Shown here: positions 50,898 through 59,948 of the stretch, one piece after another | Layout: each line of letters opens with the position of its first letter | Position numbering within the stretch: position 1 is the stretch's first letter | NCBI RefSeq assembly: GCF_015687155.1 | Contig: NZ_JADPQF010000001.1 | Span: forward strand, 1,550,001 to 1,614,000 | Length of the DNA: 64,000 nt | Source: Aliikangiella sp. G2MR2-5 | Lineage (GTDB): Bacteria; Pseudomonadota; Gammaproteobacteria; Enterobacterales; Kangiellaceae | Direction of reading: 5' to 3' | Notes under the pieces: model-generated | What the model was told of the DNA's origin: nothing | Database searches by the model: none | Seen by the model: only the letters and a program-made list of their open reading frames with translations | Translations under genes and position numbers: made by a program

Positions 50898-52178
50898 TTA
50901 AAGAAATTTGGCAAAAGGTGAATTTGTAGTGATATTGCTCTTTTTTATCCATTCAGGTACATCAAACGAATCTTTATTAATATACTGGCTAACATCAACC
51001 TGAAAACTACCACTAGCCAGGCTGTTAGCAATCCGATACAAGTTTCCACTCGAATGTACTGCTGTGTCCCGTAAATCGATCACTTTAGTAACTCCAAGTT
51101 GCTTTAGTTCATCCGAAACTAACATAATTCTGGGACGTTCGGGAAAGTCTTTACGATAGTTCAAGATAATGCCCACTTCCCCAGTCCTCATTTCCACCAA
51201 ACTGCCAACGGGAGTTTTTCCCATCCAGCCTGTAAAAGAGTCAACCAGATTTTTATCAAATTTGCTGCCTTTATTTTTCTCGAGTAAACCTATCGCCTCA
51301 GGAGCCGGCCTGGCAGAAGAGTATGGTCTGTCACTCATAACTGCATCAACAAAGTCGATGATTGAAATAATTTTAGCGTATCGAGATACCCGCTCTGCGT
51401 GGATCGTTCTTGGGTAGCCTTTTCCATCAACTCTTTCATGATGAGAGAGCGCAATTTCTCGAACAGTATCGCTAATACCGACAACTCGAGATAAAATATT
51501 AAAGCTTTCTCTGGGGTGCTCTCTCAAAACCAAAGCTTCATGTTTATCTATTTTTCCTGCTTTATTTAGTATGCCAGGAGTAACTTTTAGTTTACCGATA
51601 TCAAACAACATCCCTCCTAGCCCCAGCTTAACCAGCTGCTGTTCACTTAAGCCAAGTTCTATCCCATAGGCTATTGCGATAACGCCAACTCTTATTAAAT
51701 GCTGATAATGATAGAGACGCTTCGACTTACTGGCGATAACGAGTAACAATGCCTGAGGACAACGCTTCAGGCTGGTAATAGCTTGTTCCACATAGCCTGT
51801 TAAACTCTCAAGTTCTACAACCTGATCGGCCAAGACCTGCTTGCTTATTCCAACGAGAGCTTGCAGTAGCTTAACGTTAAGCTCGCTAGCCATCGGTAAT
51901 TCTTTAACCAGCTCTATATCGCTTTCTGTATGTTCTACAACGACCTCGCTGCCCGCTTTTAGCAAGTAAACATCGTATGCTTGCTGACTCTTGAAGTCGA
52001 CATAAACCTTACGACATTCTTTTCTTAGTCGCTCAATTTGTTCCTGATTCTCAATTGGAAATCCCTGAAATGCGAAAGAAGACTTTTCCCAGGGTTTATC
52101 CAGCTGACCGACAAACATACCGACTTCCAGACGAGTGACATCCATTTCAACGCGTTTTATATAGGTATACTCTTTCAT
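50898..52178 (-). CDS. HD-GYP domain protein (DUF3391 N terminus) with substituted HD motif
   Basis: 426 residues. The N-terminal DUF3391 domain (about 8-110; 'VTRLEVGMFVGQLDKPW'). The HD-GYP domain (about 130-330) keeps 'HPRESFNIL', 'LSHHERVDGKGYPRTI' and 'IISIIDFVDAVMSDRPY'. The HD dyad that should read HDIGK is FDIGK (Phe192), removing a metal ligand. c-di-GMP hydrolysis may therefore be weakened or lost. GYP itself is intact, so it may still bind the nucleotide. Translated from ATG 52178; 12 bp from nnrU. Confidence 0.9.
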   Translation of the reverse strand: MKEYTYIKRVEMDVTRLEVGMFVGQLDKPWEKSSFAFQGFPIENQEQIERLRKECRKVYVDFKSQQAYDVYLLKAGSEVVVEHTESDIELVKELPMASELNVKLLQALVGISKQVLADQVVELESLTGYVEQAITSLKRCPQALLLVIASKSKRLYHYQHLIRVGVIAIAYGIELGLSEQQLVKLGLGGMLFDIGKLKVTPGILNKAGKIDKHEALVLREHPRESFNILSRVVGISDTVREIALSHHERVDGKGYPRTIHAERVSRYAKIISIIDFVDAVMSDRPYSSARPAPEAIGLLEKNKGSKFDKNLVDSFTGWMGKTPVGSLVEMRTGEVGIILNYRKDFPERPRIMLVSDELKQLGVTKVIDLRDTAVHSSGNLYRIANSLASGSFQVDVSQYINKDSFDVPEWIKKSNITTNSPFAKFL

Positions 52179-52511
52179 TTAATGTCTATAAAATCAATAA
52201 GTTAAAAATATGCTTGAGGGAAATTGTGAAATTATACCATAAATCTCATAAATCGAACTTCTACCGTAAATATCGCCTGTATTTGCGCCAGCCAGAGTTT
52301 ATAACTAATAGTTTTGAGCCAGACGCTTGCTAAAAGGAATATTATTGTGTTAAAAATCTAGCCATTAATTTGTAGCAATTTTTCTGGAAACAGAACTTCT
52401 TTGTAACAATAGCTCAGGTAATATTTCCCCGGTCTAATGTTGCAAAAGTTGAGAAGTGAGAATAAATCGCTACCGATAAAAATTTCATTTTTTAATTAAT
52501 TATCGCAGACT
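52179..52511. other. gene-free upstream region of the arginine leader
   Basis: About 330 bp of AT-rich sequence between the divergent HD-GYP gene and the arginine leader ORF. It must hold the promoters of both. I saw TGAAT-type half sites but no convincing pair of ARG boxes. Confidence 0.35.
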
Positions 52512-52655
52512 ATGAATATTAGACCACAGCCTAAACTATCAACTGATTCAGCTTTCTCGGCTGCAACAGGCTGTGCATTATTAATAACTTCTTCTAGTAT
52601 CGCTGTAATCCGTCGCCGCCGCCGTACCTACTGGGCTGGGTGCGATGGTGTATAG
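52512..52655 (+). CDS. arginine operon leader peptide
   Basis: 47 codons from ATG 52512 to TAG 52653-52655. It encodes MNIRPQPKLS...IAVIRRRRRTYWAGCDGV, with five successive arginine codons CGT CGC CGC CGC CGT at 52611-52625 and another Arg (AGA) at codon 4. It precedes a terminator and the arg biosynthetic operon. A run of the operon's own product in a leader is the hallmark of ribosome-mediated attenuation (as His codons in hisL, Trp in trpL). No strong ribosome-binding sequence precedes the ATG, so the exact start is the weakest point. Confidence 0.75.
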   Translation: MNIRPQPKLSTDSAFSAATGCALLITSSSIAVIRRRRRTYWAGCDGV

Positions 52656-52707
52656 TATTTTTTAAAAAACACTTTCGAAAAACCCGGCCATCGCGCCGGG
52701 TTTTTTT
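52617..52707 (+). promoter_or_regulatory. arginine attenuator with alternative 1:2, 2:3 and 3:4 pairings
   Basis: Segment 1 (CGCCGCCGTACC, 52617-52628) overlaps the Arg codons and can pair with segment 2 (52639-52650) over 12 positions with one mismatch and some G-U pairs. Segment 2 (GGTGCGATGG, 52639-52648) can pair over 10 bp with segment 3 (CCATCGCGCC, 52688-52697). Segment 3 belongs to the terminator AACCCGGC/GCCGGGTT (52681-52702) with a T-run. Stalling at the Arg codons would free segment 2 and form the antiterminator. Confidence 0.8.
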
Positions 52708-52755
52708 ATGCCTGATTTTCGACCCAATTAATTTCAACAACCAACAGGAATACCA

Positions 52756-53769
52756 ATGAAACACTTCATCACGACAACAGACTGGAGTCAAAACGAACTT
52801 CAAAACATGATAGATGAGGCAAATGCTTTCAAGAGTGGAATGCAAAGCAATGCACTACACAACAAATCGGTCGCGTTATTGTTTTTCAATCCAAGCTTAA
52901 GAACCAGAACCTCTTTCGAACTCGGCTGCTGGCAACTGGGAGGGCATGCAGTTGTTTTGGAGCCTGGTAAAAGCGCATGGCCGCTTGAGTTTAAATTTGG
53001 TGAAGAAATGAATGGACTCGCAGAAGAACATGTCATTGAAGCAGCTCAAGTTTTATCCCGTTATTGTGATCTGATTGCGATAAGAGCATTCCCTAAGTTT
53101 GAAAATTGGGACGAAGACAAACAGGATAATGTTATCAATGCTTTTGCCAAATATGCCTCTGTTCCTGTAATAAATATGGAAACTATCACCCATCCCTGTC
53201 AGGAACTGGCTCATATGATGGCTATTCAGGAACAGCTTTCTCAGGTGAATAAAACACACCAGAAAAATAAGAAATACCTACTGACCTGGACCTATCACCC
53301 AAAACCACTTAATACTGCAGTAGCTAACTCGTCTCTACTTATAGCCTCAAAGTTTGGTATGGATATAACTTTATTATGCCCTAATGAAAGCTACCTTCTT
53401 GACGAAAAATACCTGTCTTTAAGCAAACAAAACGCAGAAGAATCTGGTGGCAGTTTGCAGGTAAGTCATGATATCGCCAGCGCTTATGAGGGAGCCGATA
53501 TCGTTTATGCCAAAAGTTGGGGTGCACTCCCCTATTTTGGTCAGTGGGAAGCTGAAAAATCGATCCGCGACCAATACAAACACTTCATTGTTGACGAAGA
53601 AAAAATGGCGCTAACAAATGATGGTTTATTTTCTCACTGTCTACCACTTAGAAGAAATGTCAAAGCAACAGATGCAGTGATGGACTCAAACTATTGTTTC
53701 GCCATTGACGAAGCTGAAAACAGATTACACGTACAAAAAGCTGTAATGAGTCAACTCATTACACAGTAA
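52756..53769 (+). CDS. argF': N-acetylornithine carbamoyltransferase (ArgF')
   Basis: 337 residues, close to the 339 of the Xanthomonas enzyme. Carbamoyl-phosphate motif 'SLRTRTSFELG'; 'EPGKSAWPLEF', 'VRxFPKF'-type 'IRAFPKFENW', 'VINMETITHPCQELAHMM' and 'HCLPLRRNVKATDAVMD' are marks of the acetylornithine (AOTCase) branch rather than ArgF/ArgI. It carbamoylates N-acetyl-L-ornithine. The route therefore makes acetylcitrulline, which the deacetylase encoded two genes on converts to citrulline. It is the first structural gene after the attenuator. Confidence 0.92.
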   Translation: MKHFITTTDWSQNELQNMIDEANAFKSGMQSNALHNKSVALLFFNPSLRTRTSFELGCWQLGGHAVVLEPGKSAWPLEFKFGEEMNGLAEEHVIEAAQVLSRYCDLIAIRAFPKFENWDEDKQDNVINAFAKYASVPVINMETITHPCQELAHMMAIQEQLSQVNKTHQKNKKYLLTWTYHPKPLNTAVANSSLLIASKFGMDITLLCPNESYLLDEKYLSLSKQNAEESGGSLQVSHDIASAYEGADIVYAKSWGALPYFGQWEAEKSIRDQYKHFIVDEEKMALTNDGLFSHCLPLRRNVKATDAVMDSNYCFAIDEAENRLHVQKAVMSQLITQ

Positions 53770-53802: not shown

Positions 53803-55134
53803 ATGAAAAACCAAAAAAGTGATACACAAAACTTAAATAACAATAGCAACGATACTGGCTACAACTCTAACTCTAACTCTAACTCTAACTCTAACTCTAA
53901 CTCTAAAATCGTATTAGCCTTTTCTGGCGGACTCGATACCAGTTTTTGCGTTCCTTACCTCTTGGAGAAAGGCTACAGTGTACACACTATCTTTGTTGAT
54001 TCTGGCGGCGTTAGCAATGAAGAAAAGCTAAATATTAAACGTAGAGCGATGGAACTGGGTGCAACCGAACATCATGAAGTTTCAATCGGTGAAAGTCTAT
54101 GGAAACAGGTGGTAATTCCATTAATCCAATCAGGCCACTGGTATCAGAATCAATATCCTTTACTTTGCTCCGACAGATATTTAATTGTTGAAGAATGTTT
54201 AAAGCTTTGTGATCAACTACAAACAAATCTGTTCGCCCATGGTTGTACCGGAATGGGAAATGATCAGGTTCGTTTTGATTTGGCTGTAAAAAGTCTTGGA
54301 GACTACAAAATAATTTCTCCAATTCGAGAGATTCAGAGAAAAACAAGTCAAGTCAGAGACTACGAGATCGAGTATCTGAAAAATAAAGGTTTTACTGTGT
54401 CAGACAAAGCATCGCAATATTCAATTAACGAAAACCTTCTGGGCGCTACTATTTCTGGTTCGGAAATTGATTTATGGCAGACACCCGGGAAAGGTAGCTA
54501 CGTTCTAACTCAAGAACCACACCTAACGGAAAAAAAAACTACCAATCTAAAACTTGGATTCGTTCAAGGCGTATTAGTATCTGTAAACAACGAAAAATTG
54601 CATCATCAATTCAATGGTGAAAAGGTCATTCAGTTTCTCAATAAAATTGGTGGTGATTATGCTATAGGAAGAGGTATTTACACTGGCGACACTACAATAG
54701 GACTAAAAGGTAGAATTGTTTTCGAGTCTCCTGCTCTTGAAATTTTACACACGGCTCATATTGCGCTCGAGCAGGCCGTACTATCGAAAGCACAAAACAG
54801 ATTTAAAAATCTCGTCGCACAAAAGTGGACTGAGCTAGTCTATGAAGGATTCTTTTACGAGCCCCTAAAAGTCGATCTGGAAGCATTCATTCGTTCAACA
54901 CAGGTTAATGTTACCGGAGAAGTCACTCTATCTCTCTCCACTGGCCAAGCGTTTGCAGTCAGCATCGAGTCCGGCAACATCCTTAAAGATGACTCAGCGG
55001 TATACGCACAATCGGCGAGCTGGACAATCGATGAAGCGCAGGGATTTATCAAATTGTTTGGACAATCCAGTGTGCTTGCAGCAAAAAACAGCATTGTTTT
55101 AAATAATAGCAACTTATGTGAACAAGCAGGTTAG
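53803..55134 (+). CDS. argG: argininosuccinate synthase
   Basis: 443 residues. PP-loop 'VLAFSGGLDTSFCVPYLLEKG' begins only at about residue 45. Later marks are 'FAHGCTGMGNDQVRFD' and 'SPIREIQRKTSQVRDYEIEYL'. It condenses citrulline and aspartate. The N-terminal extension is a low-complexity linker, (Asn-Ser)7, encoded by seven exact copies of AACTCT at 53863-53904, following 'LNNNSNDTGYN'. The core enzyme looks intact. Thirty-three bp after argF'; the next gene overlaps or abuts its stop. The xanthomonad-type sequence fits the operon type. Confidence 0.94.
   Translation: MKNQKSDTQNLNNNSNDTGYNSNSNSNSNSNSNSKIVLAFSGGLDTSFCVPYLLEKGYSVHTIFVDSGGVSNEEKLNIKRRAMELGATEHHEVSIGESLWKQVVIPLIQSGHWYQNQYPLLCSDRYLIVEECLKLCDQLQTNLFAHGCTGMGNDQVRFDLAVKSLGDYKIISPIREIQRKTSQVRDYEIEYLKNKGFTVSDKASQYSINENLLGATISGSEIDLWQTPGKGSYVLTQEPHLTEKKTTNLKLGFVQGVLVSVNNEKLHHQFNGEKVIQFLNKIGGDYAIGRGIYTGDTTIGLKGRIVFESPALEILHTAHIALEQAVLSKAQNRFKNLVAQKWTELVYEGFFYEPLKVDLEAFIRSTQVNVTGEVTLSLSTGQAFAVSIESGNILKDDSAVYAQSASWTIDEAQGFIKLFGQSSVLAAKNSIVLNNSNLCEQAG
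53863..53904 (+). repeat. hexanucleotide tandem repeat (AACTCT)7 inside argG
   Basis: Seven exact copies of AACTCT encode Asn-Ser repeats in the N-terminal linker of ArgG. Copy-number change would keep the frame because the unit is 6 bp. The preceding bases 'AAATAACAATAGCAACG' are also A-rich, encoding more Asn. Confidence 0.95.
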
Positions 55135-55141
55135 CTCTATT

Positions 55142-56260
55142 ATGAATAACTCAAAAACACTTTTATCGAGAACTCTTACTTATCTGGAGTCTTTGGTGGG
55201 ATCTGACACACAAAACCCGCCACGTAGAGTTGACAGCTCATCACCCATATTTTGTTTTCTAAAGGAAAACCTACCAGAATTTGATTTCAAAATCTATGAC
55301 GCTGGCGATGGCTGTATTGCACTTCTGGCGGTAAGGGGGAATCCAAAGCTACTTTTCAATTTTCATATTGATACTGTACCAATAGCGGACGGGTGGCAAA
55401 GTAACCCGTTTATACTGAAAGTAAGAGACAATAAGGCTTATGGTCTCGGAGCATGCGATATTAAGGGTGCTTCAGCCTGTATGCTAACCGCAGCCAACGC
55501 AACCAACTCTGATCTAGCACTACTCTTTTCAAGTGATGAGGAGTTTGGTTCAAGTGCAGCCATAAAACACTTCCTATCATTTAAACACAACTTCGAAAGT
55601 GTGATTGTTGCCGAACCAACTAATGGGGGCGCCGTTTGTGCACACAGAGGAATTGAGTCTGCCACCATTACTTTCCAGGGAAAATCAGGACATGCATCTT
55701 CGCTTGATGCTCTTAAATTTAACGCCATACACCATGCATCCAAATGGATCAGTAACTCAATTGACTGGATAGCAGCACAGGCTTTTCAATTTGAAAACTT
55801 GAAGGGTCTTCCATTTAATGCAGGTAAAATTAATGGCGGAATTAAAGCCAACATGGTGGCTTCTGAATGTGAAGTTTCTTTTGGCTTCAGACCACTTCCC
55901 GGGACGAATGTAGAAGCACTGATTAATCAGCTGAAAATAGCAGCCCCGAATGATGCAGAAGTTACCATTAAATCTTCATTTAGTGGTCCTGCACTCCCCG
56001 CTACCCACTCTCTCTTTGACGAAGAAGTGAGAAAAGCAAAAGCTTTGATTAACTCACTGAATCTGCCCTTAGCTGAACCAGTAAACTTCTGGACAGAAGC
56101 CAGCCTTTTTTCCAGGTCTGGATTAACTTCAATTGTCTATGGACCAGGAGATATCAATCAGGCTCACACCGCTAACGAATGGGTAGAACTAAAGCAGTTA
56201 GAAGAAGTTACCAATCAGTATATTGAAATTATCGAAAATACAGGACAGAAAAATGGATAA
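55142..56260 (+). CDS. argE': N-acetylcitrulline deacetylase (ArgE' type, M20 family)
   Basis: 372 residues from ATG 55142. The frame also allows a GTG start at 55118 overlapping the argG 3' end; the best start is uncertain. M20 metallopeptidase motifs: 'HIDTVPIADGW' (first metal His/Asp), 'GLGACDIKGASACML', 'SSDEEFGSS' (catalytic Glu) and 'VAEPT'. In the argF' route the enzyme removes acetate from acetylcitrulline. Its stop overlaps the next gene's ATG by 8 bp. It could also act on acetylornithine, but the neighbours favour acetylcitrulline. Confidence 0.85.
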   Translation: MNNSKTLLSRTLTYLESLVGSDTQNPPRRVDSSSPIFCFLKENLPEFDFKIYDAGDGCIALLAVRGNPKLLFNFHIDTVPIADGWQSNPFILKVRDNKAYGLGACDIKGASACMLTAANATNSDLALLFSSDEEFGSSAAIKHFLSFKHNFESVIVAEPTNGGAVCAHRGIESATITFQGKSGHASSLDALKFNAIHHASKWISNSIDWIAAQAFQFENLKGLPFNAGKINGGIKANMVASECEVSFGFRPLPGTNVEALINQLKIAAPNDAEVTIKSSFSGPALPATHSLFDEEVRKAKALINSLNLPLAEPVNFWTEASLFSRSGLTSIVYGPGDINQAHTANEWVELKQLEEVTNQYIEIIENTGQKNG

Positions 56261-57644
56261 CGTAATTTCACAGTCCAGAGAAAAAAAGACAAAAGCTAAA
56301 GAAACCATTATTCAGTTATTGTCAAACCTGGCTAACCCAAAAGAGATTGAACAATATCTAAAACGTTTTGTCGGTGCAGGTAAAACTCATTTTGCGGTTA
56401 TCAAAGTTGGTGGTTCAATATTAAAAACAGAAATAGATAGTCTATGCTCATCTCTTGCTTTCCTGGAGCAAATTGGTTTATTTCCAATCATTGTTCATGG
56501 TGCCGGGCCACAGCTTAGCGAGCAACTTATTAAGCAGGATATTGACTGCCAATTCATTGAAGGCCAAAGAGTTACATCCAGTGAGGTTTTACATAATGCA
56601 AAAAAGGTGTTCACTCACGAAAACCTGAAGCTATCCAATAGACTGCAATCTCTCGGGGTCAGGGCTAGTTCAATTACTTCGGGAGTATTTATTGCTAGTC
56701 CAAGTAAGGATAAAAAAATGGGACTAGTCGGAGAAATCGTAGATATCGATCTATCACCAATAAAAACTGCAATTGAAAATGGTTCGATTCCCATACTTTC
56801 CTCCCTTGGTGAAACGCTTGACGGACAATTACTCAACATCAATGCAGATATGGCTACAAACCAACTTGCAATAGCACTAAAACCTTACAAAATAATATTT
56901 TTAACCGGTACAGGAGGAATTCTTGACGAACACAATAAAATAATCTCTTCTATTAATCTTGTGACCGACTTCAACTATCTTGTCGAGCAGCCCTGGTTAA
57001 ACGGAGGTATGAAACTAAAACTAACACAAATAGCAGAAATACTTAGTCAACTACCCTCTACGGCTTCTGTATCGATCACCAAACCAGCTAATTTGGCAAA
57101 AGAACTTTTTACTCACAAAGGCTCAGGAACACTGGTTAGAAAAGGTGAGTCAATTATGACACACGAGTCTATAGAGAGTATCAAGCTAAAAAAACTGAAG
57201 AATCTAATCGAATCATCTTTTAAACAACAACTTGAAAACGACTATTTTGAAGCACTGAAAATCAGTAAGGCGTATATAACCTACTGTTACAGAGCTGCAG
57301 CAGTAGTAACTTTTGATGGACAGCATCACTATCTTGATAAATTCGTTGTCGCCGATGAAGCAAAAGGCGAAGGTCTTGGCAAAGTACTATGGGAGAAGTT
57401 AACTTCAGATACACCAGCATTCTATTGGCGTTCAAAAGTCAGTAACCCTATTAACCCATTCTACTTTAATAAAGCGAGCGGAATGCAAAAGAGTAAGAAG
57501 TGGTTTGTATTCTGGAAGGGTATAGATAAATTTGACGAAATAAGTTCATGTGTAGCCAAAGCAAAGAACAAACCCGCCAGCTTTATTACGGCAGATACTG
57601 TCGCACCTGAAAGTTTTTCTCTCAAGGTAGGAGTTGTATCATGA
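56253..57644 (+). CDS. argBA: bifunctional N-acetylglutamate kinase / N-acetylglutamate synthase
   Basis: 463 residues from ATG 56253 (8-bp overlap with the argE' stop). The kinase half (about 30-300) has 'VIKVGGSI', 'IIVHGAGPQLSEQL', 'INADMATNQLAIAL' and 'FLTGTGGILDEH'. The C-terminal GNAT half (about 310-463) is of the DUF619 type: 'VVTFDGQHHYLDKFVVAD', 'GEGLGKVLW', 'YWRSKVSNPINPFYFNKASG'. This is the fused NAGS/K known from Xanthomonas and related to animal NAGS, not E. coli ArgA. It performs the first two steps from glutamate, with arginine as likely feedback inhibitor. Confidence 0.93.
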   Translation: MDNVISQSREKKTKAKETIIQLLSNLANPKEIEQYLKRFVGAGKTHFAVIKVGGSILKTEIDSLCSSLAFLEQIGLFPIIVHGAGPQLSEQLIKQDIDCQFIEGQRVTSSEVLHNAKKVFTHENLKLSNRLQSLGVRASSITSGVFIASPSKDKKMGLVGEIVDIDLSPIKTAIENGSIPILSSLGETLDGQLLNINADMATNQLAIALKPYKIIFLTGTGGILDEHNKIISSINLVTDFNYLVEQPWLNGGMKLKLTQIAEILSQLPSTASVSITKPANLAKELFTHKGSGTLVRKGESIMTHESIESIKLKKLKNLIESSFKQQLENDYFEALKISKAYITYCYRAAAVVTFDGQHHYLDKFVVADEAKGEGLGKVLWEKLTSDTPAFYWRSKVSNPINPFYFNKASGMQKSKKWFVFWKGIDKFDEISSCVAKAKNKPASFITADTVAPESFSLKVGVVS

Positions 57645-58642
57645 AAACAGAGCTCAAACAAAACTATACCGTAGGCTTGCTTGGGGTTAGAGGATACGTT
57701 GGTAGAGCAATAGTTAAATTAATCAACCATCATCCACAGCTTTCGTTGCAATGGATTAGCTCTAGACAGCTTAAGGGTTTATGCCTTTCAACTTTGGAAC
57801 CAGAACACCCTCCACTGACTATAGATTGTTTTTCACCAACCGATTTAAAAAATAACCCTTGCGACATTTTGATTCTGGCGTTACCTAATGGACTTGCTAA
57901 CAACTATGTTAATCACGTTAGACATTTAAACTATAAATTAGTCATTGACCTCTCGGCCGACTATCGATTTAATGATGAATGGCAATATTTAGTACCGGAA
58001 ATTAATGGTGAAAAATTTGTCTCACAGAAATCACAAGGGAAGACAATAAAGATAAGCAATCCGGGTTGCTACGCTACCGCCATGCAGTTGGCACTTGCCC
58101 CAATTTTACCCTTGATCGAATCAAGACCTGGCTGCTTCGGGGTCTCTGGATACAGTGGCGCGGGAACAACCCCCTGCGCAACCAACAACCAAAAAAATCT
58201 GGAAAATAATATTATTCCTTACCAGCTTATAAATCACTTCCATGAAAAGGAAGTTAGTTTTCATCTCGACACACCTATTAGCTTTACTCCACATGTAGCT
58301 GATTTTTTTAGCGGAATAAGTATGACAGTTCAATTGGAATTGGCGCAATCAGTTCCTTATCACACTCTATTATCTTTATATCAGAACTACTATTCTGATT
58401 CAGAGCTAGTGAAAATACAGAAAGAAGCAGCGACTATTCAACAGGTTGTAAATACTCATTGCGCAGTAATCGGTGGATTTTCTCTCGCGCAAGATAACAA
58501 ACGCCTCCACCTAAATTGTGTGCTTGATAACCTGTTAAAAGGAGCCGCTTCCCAGGCAATACAAAACATAAACCTGGCATTAGGTTTATCACCTACTCTG
58601 GGACTTTCTACTGAAACAAATTCATTCAAGCTGACTGCATAG
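57641..58642 (+). CDS. argC: N-acetyl-gamma-glutamyl-phosphate reductase
   Basis: 333 residues. NADP-binding 'VGLLGVRGYVGRAIVKLI' and the catalytic Cys in 'ISNPGCYATAMQLAL'; later 'SGYSGAGTTPCATN' and 'FTPHVADFFSGI'. It reduces acetylglutamyl phosphate to the semialdehyde. The ATGA overlap with argBA (4 bp) gives translational coupling. It is followed by argH after 10 bp. The argD aminotransferase is not in the window and is presumably elsewhere. Confidence 0.95.
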   Translation: MKTELKQNYTVGLLGVRGYVGRAIVKLINHHPQLSLQWISSRQLKGLCLSTLEPEHPPLTIDCFSPTDLKNNPCDILILALPNGLANNYVNHVRHLNYKLVIDLSADYRFNDEWQYLVPEINGEKFVSQKSQGKTIKISNPGCYATAMQLALAPILPLIESRPGCFGVSGYSGAGTTPCATNNQKNLENNIIPYQLINHFHEKEVSFHLDTPISFTPHVADFFSGISMTVQLELAQSVPYHTLLSLYQNYYSDSELVKIQKEAATIQQVVNTHCAVIGGFSLAQDNKRLHLNCVLDNLLKGAASQAIQNINLALGLSPTLGLSTETNSFKLTA

Positions 58643-58652
58643 AGGAATTGAA

Positions 58653-59948
58653 ATGAGTTCACCTATCTGGCAAAAACAAAAGCAAGCAAAAATTGATCAA
58701 TCAATAATGAATTATATGGCTGGAGAAGACTGCCTTCTTGACAAGCATCTTATTCAATATGACATTCAGGCCAGCATAGCCCATGTGCAAGGGCTGGCAT
58801 CAATCAATATCGTTACCGAGCAAGAAGCTAAAAATCTAGTTAAAAATCTTAATGAACTTTGCACAGCCCTTAAAAACAAACAGTTTCAACTGGATTCACG
58901 CTTTGAAGATGGACATTCTGCAATTGAATTCTATCTGACCGAAAAACTTGGTGATCTCGGTAAAAAGGTTCACACAGGACGTTCGAGAAATGACCAGGTG
59001 CTGGTCGCCACTCGTCTATATATGAAAGACGCTATAAAGCAAGCTCTTGAATTAGCCAACGAGACAATTGAAACCTTGCTTGTTCAAGCCAAGGAAACAC
59101 AAACTATACCTATGCCTGGTTACACCCACATGCAGCGCGCAGTTCCCTCTTCCTGTGGGATGTGGTTTACCGCTTTTGCTGAATCCATGCTAGACAACAA
59201 AATACCTTTAAAATCATCATTAGAGCTGATCGACGCGAACCCTTTGGGGACAGCTGCTGGCTATGGTGTTAACTTGAATTTGAATCGTCAACTAACTACT
59301 GAAAAACTCGGGTTTTCCAGAATTCAAGTCAATCCTATTTATGCGCAAAATAGCCGTGGAAAACTCGAACTCAATCTACTCAGTGCTTTATCAAATTGCT
59401 TACTCGATATAAGGAGATACTGCTGGGATTTATCACTATTTATGACGCAAGAATTTAACATGGTTTCTCTTCCAGATGAAATGACAACCGGAAGTTCGAT
59501 CATGCCCAACAAGCGCAACCCGGATCTTGTAGAACTGATGAGAGCAGCTTACTCAATAGTGCAAGCTGCCAAGGTCGAGTTAGAATCAGTTCTTTCGCTT
59601 CCTTCAGGTTATCAACGAGATCTGCAACTGACCAAATCACCACTTATCCGTGGAGTCAATAAATCGTTGGAGACTATGAAGCTATTTCCTCAGCTTGTTC
59701 GAGCAACAAGGTTTAATGAAAGTAAACTACGCGAAGCCATTGATGCGCCTATGTACGCCACAGACCTGGCAACACAAATGGCAGCTGAAGGCGTCCCTTT
59801 CAGAGAAGCCTACAAACAGACCGCAAATCATTATGAGCAATTAGAAAGAGCAAGTCCGGAAGAAAGCCTTGCTAAAAGAATATCTCTGGGCGGCTCAGCT
59901 AATTTAGGTCTAAACATCATTGAAGAGCGGTTTAGAAGTATTGAGTAG
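58653..59948 (+). CDS. argH: argininosuccinate lyase
   Basis: 431 residues. The family signature 'GSSIMPNKRNPDLVELMR' holds the catalytic Ser loop. Other marks: 'DGHSAIEFYLTEKLG', 'HTGRSRNDQVLVATRLYMKD' and 'PGYTHMQRAVPSSCGMW'. It cleaves argininosuccinate to arginine and fumarate. Xanthomonad-type ArgH sequences begin with 'WQKxxxxxDxxIMxYMAGED' as here. Ten bp after argC, it is the last gene of the operon; a hairpin follows. Confidence 0.95.
   Translation: MSSPIWQKQKQAKIDQSIMNYMAGEDCLLDKHLIQYDIQASIAHVQGLASINIVTEQEAKNLVKNLNELCTALKNKQFQLDSRFEDGHSAIEFYLTEKLGDLGKKVHTGRSRNDQVLVATRLYMKDAIKQALELANETIETLLVQAKETQTIPMPGYTHMQRAVPSSCGMWFTAFAESMLDNKIPLKSSLELIDANPLGTAAGYGVNLNLNRQLTTEKLGFSRIQVNPIYAQNSRGKLELNLLSALSNCLLDIRRYCWDLSLFMTQEFNMVSLPDEMTTGSSIMPNKRNPDLVELMRAAYSIVQAAKVELESVLSLPSGYQRDLQLTKSPLIRGVNKSLETMKLFPQLVRATRFNESKLREAIDAPMYATDLATQMAAEGVPFREAYKQTANHYEQLERASPEESLAKRISLGGSANLGLNIIEERFRSIE

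Follow-up and report, generated by a model that had tools for sequence, protein, structure and literature searches.

The stretch of DNA analysed here, referred to as the window, comprises 64,000 nucleotides from Aliikangiella sp. G2MR2-5, a member of the Kangiellaceae. It contains an operon with the gene order argF'-argG-argE-argB-argC-argH, for which profile matches were obtained for all six products, located 3' of a short leader ORF. The following features were defined:

50898-52178, minus strand: gene 5' of the leader region, divergent
52512-52655, plus strand: leader ORF of 47 codons plus TAG (MNIRPQPKLSTDSAFSAATGCALLITSSSIAVIRRRRRTYWAGCDGV); the frame is open, and positional homologues with Arg runs are found in relatives
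52611-52625, plus strand: regulatory codons, five tandem Arg codons (CGT CGC CGC CGC CGT)
52756-53769, plus strand: argF', N-acetylornithine carbamoyltransferase (NF003384, 562 bits, cut-off 288)
53803-55134, plus strand: argG, argininosuccinate synthase (TIGR00032 above cut-off; NF003385 with 575 bits, under its cut-off of 603)
55142-56260, plus strand: argE-like acetylornithine deacetylase (NF006439); start codon unsettled, 55118 in the ORF list
56256-57644, plus strand: acetylglutamate kinase, long form (NF003387), which we take to be an argB/argA fusion
57641-58642, plus strand: argC (TIGR01850)
58653-59948, plus strand: argH (TIGR00838)

The same order of arg genes is known from Xanthomonas. 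Since the gene at 50898-52178 is located on the opposite strand, the leader region requires a promoter of its own, and since it is divergent, the hairpin of the leader cannot be its terminator. No sigma-70 consensus promoter was detected on the plus strand in a promoter scan, and no clear Shine-Dalgarno sequence was seen by eye 5' of position 52512. At the start of argG, a run of AACTCT repeats (53863-53906), encoding (Asn-Ser)n ahead of the synthase domain, is probably prone to slippage.

Between the Arg codons and argF', folding of the RNA defined the following elements:

52610-52623, plus strand: segment 1, part of the protector 1:2; 52610-52616 pairs with 52642-52648, and 52619-52623 with 52634-52636 and 52638-52639 (folding)
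52634-52641, plus strand: segment 2, 5' arm of the antiterminator (GGCUGGGU), within the leader ORF close to its stop
52642-52648, plus strand: GCGAUGG, 3' arm of the protector helix
52682-52689, plus strand: segment 3 (ACCCGGCC), partner of segment 2 in the antiterminator or of segment 4 in the terminator
52677-52706, plus strand: intrinsic terminator 3:4, 52677-52688 paired with 52695-52706, loop 52689-52694, with a U tract (folding and covariation)

The three helices, protector 1:2, antiterminator 2:3 and terminator 3:4, are mutually exclusive in the folding of the window, and the leader folds more stably than expected by chance. The region 52603-52707 reaches -43.0 kcal/mol (z -4.25), a stability attained by none of 200 shuffled sequences, and none of 200 shuffles was as stable as 52603-52668 (z -3.29) or 52628-52694 (z -3.10) either. 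A simple terminator scan of 52200-52800 reported no site, probably because the U tract pairs with A residues and is thereby counted into the stem.

An initial annotation, made from sequence alone, had described the 47-codon ORF with its five Arg codons and a strong intrinsic terminator with no gene in between. Both statements held, the codons being placed at 52611-52625 and the hairpin at 52677-52706 with argF' next at 52756. It had further claimed exclusive structures of the kind used by trp, his and leu attenuators, which was confirmed in the folding and in relatives, but its pairing registers held only in part. The proposed 10-bp helix of 52639-52648 with 52688-52697 is present in the letters, with one G-U pair, but is not conserved: the letters of its partner in the loop vary in relatives, while GGCUGGGU and ACCCGGCC are constant by eye. 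The conserved antiterminator register is 52634-52641 with 52682-52689. Likewise, a pairing of segment 2 with the Arg codon region (52617-52628) had been suggested; a 1:2 pairing is obtained in folding, but its register is placed elsewhere.

A switch between terminator and antiterminator in front of a biosynthetic operon would also be compatible with a metabolite-binding riboswitch or a T-box-like RNA in place of a translated leader. However, an Rfam search of the window gave no family match, and thus no T-box or amino-acid riboswitch family, and conservation falls on the Arg codons, segment 2 and the terminator and not on a compact aptamer. This alternative is considered very unlikely.

To define how widely the arrangement is distributed, the region 5' of argF' was examined in 112 loci (L002-L029, L036-L039, L066-L145), 105 of which remained after removal of seven duplicates. 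The full anatomy, an Arg codon leader ORF followed by segments 2, 3 and 4, was fitted by script in 98 of the 105 distinct loci, 27 outside and 71 inside the Xanthomonadales. Three of the seven loci missed by the script carry the element by eye (L013, L091, L097) and three are accounted for by contig edges (L016, L021, L073; L016 and L073 are apparently on the same contig); L094, from a Myxococcales MAG, lacks it. Eight more distant argF'-like loci (L041-L048) showed no such leader by eye within 300 nt upstream, where the sequence mostly looks coding. The same-genus set of the window's genome includes Aliikangiella marina and A. coralliicola, both with the leader. In two loci, L013 and L070, inserted or repeated sequence separates the attenuator from argF', with distances of 489 and 344 nt, respectively, from leader stop to gene. 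In L111 (Lysobacteraceae NML07-0707), CGC replaces a CGA codon conserved in the other Xanthomonadales leaders and segment 2 is imperfect (GCCGGC); this could be an attenuator in decay.

Outside the Xanthomonadales, the N-terminal part of the peptide varies from genus to genus, and the Arg runs persist. Of the 270 codons that make up the last ten positions ahead of segment 2 in these 27 leaders, 117 specify Arg. Only CGN codons are used (119/119); in the argF' genes of L002-L029, by comparison, 129 of 272 Arg codons counted are AGA or AGG. The distance from the first Arg codon to segment 2 (GCUGGG) is 21 to 27 nt in 26 of the 27 leaders and 18 nt in the remaining one. For the Xanthomonadales, the first Arg codon of a conserved TSRARR stretch is located 30 nt from segment 2 in 66 of 71 leaders, placing the third Arg codon 21 nt away. 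Across all relatives, the spacing between Arg codons and antiterminator ranges from 18 to 33 nt.

Comparison of the elements revealed that segments 2, 3 and 4 vary jointly, as GCUGGG/CCCAGC/GCUGGG, GCCGGG/CCCGGC/GCCGGG or GUCGGG/CCCGAC/GUCGGG; the combination GCUGGG/CCCGGC/GCCGGG is tolerated by means of G-U pairing. The script's own counts of pairing are biased, because segment 2 had been picked as the best match near the stop. Pairing statistics were therefore taken from a structure-blind MAFFT alignment, which covered 39 of the 98 elements. In this set, 96.7% of the cells of helix 3:4 are paired, with 22 two-sided changes, and 87.2% of those of helix 2:3, with 12 two-sided changes. The covariation scores of both helices were reached by none of 500 shuffles and by no slid register. 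Not all measures were equally clear. Two of five measures for helix 2:3 were ordinary when compared to shuffles, namely how many pairs show two-sided change (59/500) and how many pair types occur (107/500), and two slid registers have four such two-sided pairs versus three in the true register. The pair types of helix 3:4 were also ordinary (186/500).

A covariance model of the element gave matches of at least 48 bits in 25 of 61 relatives, and the best match in the other 36 reached 37.5 bits. The 25 positive genomes are exactly those with a close argF' (E below 1e-100). Among 369 genomes across the class, scores of at least 59 bits were obtained only in the window's genome and in G110, G262, G370 and G462, and these five also have the top five argF' scores. 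Judging from their leaders and, for three of them, from Rfam Xoo5 matches, the latter four probably belong to the Xanthomonadales. Outside argF' loci, the matches examined did not exceed 41 bits. Inspection of 22 loci at lower-scoring matches yielded five His leaders; apart from L161, described below, the rest appeared by eye to be ordinary terminators. The His leaders, found by eye before a hisG-like gene in genus g5 of the window's family, which we take to be Kangiella, are of the same build and serve as a positive control. They are located at L175 573-681, L176 1821-1929 (minus strand), L177 639-740, L178 681-790 and L181 1899-1990 (minus strand); L175-L178 gave no Rfam match. Attenuators of this kind, with His codons before hisG, are already known.

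Short ORFs occur frequently, as do terminators, and an Arg-rich short ORF could adjoin an ordinary terminator simply by coincidence. As chance controls, 480-nt windows elsewhere in the same loci gave 40 detector hits among 3590, and dinucleotide-shuffled leaders gave 3 among 980. L161 (1438-1563), a model match below threshold in an unrelated gammaproteobacterium, provides an example: a 41-codon frame with four consecutive Arg codons adjoins a terminator, which is followed by a tRNA-like sequence on the minus strand (by eye), and no tie to arginine genes is visible. This case is likely to be a product of chance. As an explanation for the element before argF', coincidence can be all but excluded, as 98 of 105 orthologous places share the arrangement, and compensatory changes are found among them.

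ArgR was detected in none of the 25 leader-bearing relatives, as opposed to 23 of the remaining 36, and in none of 119 genomes of the Xanthomonadaceae-like family to which G262 belongs. The window's genome gave no match to PF01316 in a search that was positive in 9 of 14 control genomes including E. coli. The contrast between leader-bearing and other relatives is confounded by kinship. Nine genomes of the window's family, f1, have neither ArgR nor a close argF' (G007, G008, G010, G014, G020, G023, G032, G037, G038). They may be arginine auxotrophs, or some may be incomplete assemblies (G007 73% and G038 86% complete).

The effect of a translating ribosome on the competing helices was predicted by folding with the ribosome footprint masked; relative to the first base of the A-site codon, the mask covered 16 nt on the 5' side and 12 nt on the 3' side. 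Folding was applied to the transcript at the stage preceding synthesis of segment 4, and antiterminator probabilities above 0.5 were scored. The fractions of leaders scoring positive are given in the order ribosome on the first Arg codon, ribosome at the stop codon, no ribosome:

Aliikangiella group: 8/8, 0/8, 2/8
g3: 4/4, 0/4, 2/4
g5: 12/12, 3/12, 3/12
f4: 2/2, 0/2, 2/2
f13: 1/1, 0/1, 1/1
non-Xanthomonadales total: 27/27, 3/27, 10/27
Xanthomonadales: 51/71, 0/71, 47/71

The position of the ribosome was also scanned, using slightly longer transcripts and a sample of 24 of the 71 Xanthomonadales leaders, 23 of which entered the position counts. In the three Kangiellaceae groups, an A-site 15 to 24 nt before segment 2, corresponding to the Arg codons, was permissive for the antiterminator (0.89-1.00), which dropped between 12 and 9 nt. 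A ribosome on any of the first four Arg codons left segment 3 of the window sequestered at 0.98-1.00, one on the fifth at 0.80. Segment 3 was still sequestered at 0.40 with the ribosome at the stop, and the mean of the Aliikangiella group at stop spacing was 0.44 (5 leaders). In the window, the permissive stretch opens 42 nt out, six codons ahead of the first Arg codon (0.95-1.00 over these codons). As a ribosome upstream of the Arg codons is thus permissive as well, specificity must come from the site of stalling. Without ribosome, the scan gave antiterminator values of 0.21-0.57 in the three Kangiellaceae groups, 0.67 in the Xanthomonadales and 0.90-1.00 in f4 and f13; with a ribosome, the Xanthomonadales reached at most 0.88 versus these 0.67. 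Even with the first Arg codon occupied by the ribosome, the full-length RNA at equilibrium gave a mean probability of helix 3:4 of 0.92-0.99 in the three Kangiellaceae groups. The terminator is therefore nearly always favoured once the RNA is completely made, and read-through needs co-transcriptional trapping of the antiterminator.

In the Xanthomonadales, the leader overlaps a catalogued RNA. Rfam family RF02242 (Xoo5) matches it in 3 of 4 and 11 of 20 Xanthomonadales-type loci given (14/24), and the window is below the gathering threshold of the family. Xoo5 was detected by Northern blot, its 5' end being determined by RACE and its 3' end taken from a clone of 124 nt (PMC3039613). Bands of approximately 130 and 100 nt were reported, the longer one in early growth only, and the words arginine, leader and argF do not occur in that publication. 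The RF02242 consensus extends from 2 nt 5' of the leader AUG, which implies nearly leaderless initiation there, to beyond the leader stop. In 8 of 8 loci measured, the gap between the annotated Xoo5 3' end and the C-rich arm of the terminator is 9-10 nt, so that Xoo5 would be either a trimmed or an under-read leader. Where RF02242 matches, Xoo5, catalogued as an sRNA without an explained role, is part of the leader. The opposite view, in which the leader functions chiefly as a trans-acting small RNA and the ORF is incidental, is supported by these Rfam matches and by the Northern detection. It appears very unlikely, since the Xanthomonadales ORF is under selection at the amino acid level (see below), the element tracks argF' one to one in 61 relatives, and the window has no Rfam match. 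An action of the terminated leader in trans as a by-product remains conceivable.

The Xanthomonadales leaders share more than Arg codons. MTSRARR is present in all 71 fitted leaders, despite synonymous change at the Thr, Ala and first two Arg codons. Among 68 distinct sequences, pN/pS is 0.03 over TSRARRP and 0.16 over the 14 codons from a conserved Ala to Pro, compared to 1.01 in the five codons that follow this block and 0.90 in the nine that precede it. Selection at the amino acid level implies that the ORF is translated in this group. In 70 of 71 leaders the final Arg codon is CGA; the argF' genes of the named loci use this codon for only 15 of 1187 arginines. Ser is encoded by TCG in 71/71 and Pro by CCG in 68/68 leaders; from the former it follows that part of the constraint acts on nucleotides. 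No conserved peptide beyond the Arg codons was seen by eye in the window's clade, and a comparison of two leader peptides to NCBIfam and Pfam gave nothing above cut-off.

These observations raise the possibility that, at least in the Xanthomonadales, ARMAxGMTSRARRP is an arginine-sensing arrest peptide acting in the ribosome tunnel. The pause would answer to arginine or to the CGA-CCG pair, and the same hairpins would turn it into termination or read-through. In favour of this explanation are the low pN/pS of TSRARRP relative to its flanks, the invariance of MTSRARR and the strong bias towards CGA. On the other hand, the Kangiellaceae leaders, including that of the window, lack the motif and keep mainly the Arg codons, RNA pairing inside the ORF could fix some codons, and the uniform TCG and CCG codons are more than amino acid selection requires. 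An arrest peptide in place of an attenuator is therefore regarded as unlikely. Plain attenuation needs the Arg codons alone, and the conservation of other residues may hint at a contribution of the nascent chain or of slow codons.

Sequence and folding show tandem Arg codons in a leader ORF, three exclusive helices and an arginine operon located 3'. By inference from sequence and folding, the element is very likely a ribosome-mediated transcription attenuator sensing charged Arg-tRNA (probability about 0.9). The features expected of such an attenuator are largely in place. The short leader ORF is rich in codons for the amino acid made by the operon, an intrinsic terminator lies between it and argF', and the competing antiterminator is conserved with compensatory changes. 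In folding, a stalled ribosome covers segment 1 and leaves segment 2 uncovered. The protector 1:2 is found in the window and the Kangiellaceae groups, but is predicted by the folding model to be weak in the Xanthomonadales and in f4 and f13.

In the mechanism proposed, RNA polymerase would start just 5' of the leader with a ribosome trailing behind. When Arg-tRNA is scarce, the ribosome would stall at the Arg codons and cover segment 1, and segment 2, remaining free, would capture segment 3 before segment 4 is made, resulting in read-through into argF'-argGEBCH. When Arg-tRNA is ample, the ribosome would reach the stop and cover segment 2, or depart and allow 1:2 to form; with segment 2 blocked, 3:4 would form and transcription would end before argF'. 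On this model, the arg genes would probably be read only at low arginine, a prediction from sequence and folding.

The initial annotation had proposed such an arginine attenuator, and its interpretation is very likely correct, given the changes in pairing registers and in the organism. Lack of conservation in relatives would have refuted it, but ORF, Arg codons and pairings are kept. Its reference to ArgR control in enterobacteria has to be corrected, as the organism belongs to the Kangiellaceae and no ArgR was found in its genome. Read-through under scarcity of arginyl-tRNA stands as a prediction only. The suggestion that the element may be undescribed is in line with the open-access literature searched, in which no arginine attenuator of an arg operon was found (titles and starts of abstracts). 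No such element is reported for Actinobacteria, and arginine genes elsewhere use T-boxes (PMC1262725). For P. aeruginosa, a carA leader peptide is cited, with pyrimidine control possibly exerted by attenuation (PMC4997734). The relevant sections of PMC8632094, PMC2965389 and PMC4833913 do not contain an arg operon attenuator. Attenuation as such is a well-known mechanism; what is provisionally regarded as new, on the basis of open-access literature only, is the arginine version, its link to the absence of ArgR, the interpretation of Xoo5 and the conservation of the peptide.

The attenuator specificity is very likely shared by two lineages without detected ArgR, the relatives including the Xanthomonas group. 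By inference, the attenuator probably stands in for the missing repressor in these lineages. A bolder reading, which is no more than possible as a whole, combines several proposals. Loss of ArgR in two gammaproteobacterial lineages would have accompanied a shared attenuator moving with the argF'-type operon. The Xanthomonadales version would be a hybrid sensor, in which the ARMAxGMTSRARRP peptide and the rare CGA-CCG pair tune pausing, an arginine-responsive arrest peptide acting via an intrinsic terminator and partly catalogued as Xoo5. Arginine is the textbook case of control by the ArgR repressor in gammaproteobacteria. If the attenuator reading is true, arginine gains a codon-reading attenuator like trp and his, a possible ArgR-free control of arginine genes in the Xanthomonadales and much of the Kangiellaceae is explained, and the orphan Rfam family Xoo5 obtains a role. 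The Xanthomonadales peptide makes the boundary between attenuator and arrest peptide directly testable.

Ribosome-mediated attenuators are classical for the enterobacterial trp, his, leu, ilv, thr and phe operons. With these, the arg leader shares an ORF containing codons for the product, exclusive 1:2, 2:3 and 3:4 helices, an intrinsic terminator and a biosynthetic operon 3', and the his leader of g5 is similar. The arg leader differs in that it would sense arginine, for which the literature searched showed no attenuator of a biosynthetic operon, and occurs where ArgR was not found. ArgR regulons (PMC5343134) comprise the same genes in those gammaproteobacteria that have ArgR, but there control is exerted by a DNA-binding protein, which was not detected in leader-bearing genomes. 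Xoo5 (RF02242), where matching, sits in the arg leader, but it is filed as an sRNA with a 3' end before the terminator and does not match the window. In fungi, the arginine attenuator peptide also provides arginine control by an upstream peptide; this system is eukaryotic and relies on arginine-induced arrest of translation without a transcription terminator. Two further bacterial leaders are comparable. In the speF leader of Salmonella, consecutive Arg codons of orf34 sense arginine by ribosome pausing (PMC6386406), but a polyamine gene is controlled via Rho, access to the RBS and RNase G, and no intrinsic terminator of an arg operon is involved. Arg codons of the leader peptide rbfL of Staphylococcus aureus likewise sense arginine limitation (PMC13009471), but regulation there works through blockage of the ribosome-binding site of a biofilm regulator and with the opposite sign, low arginine leading to repression.
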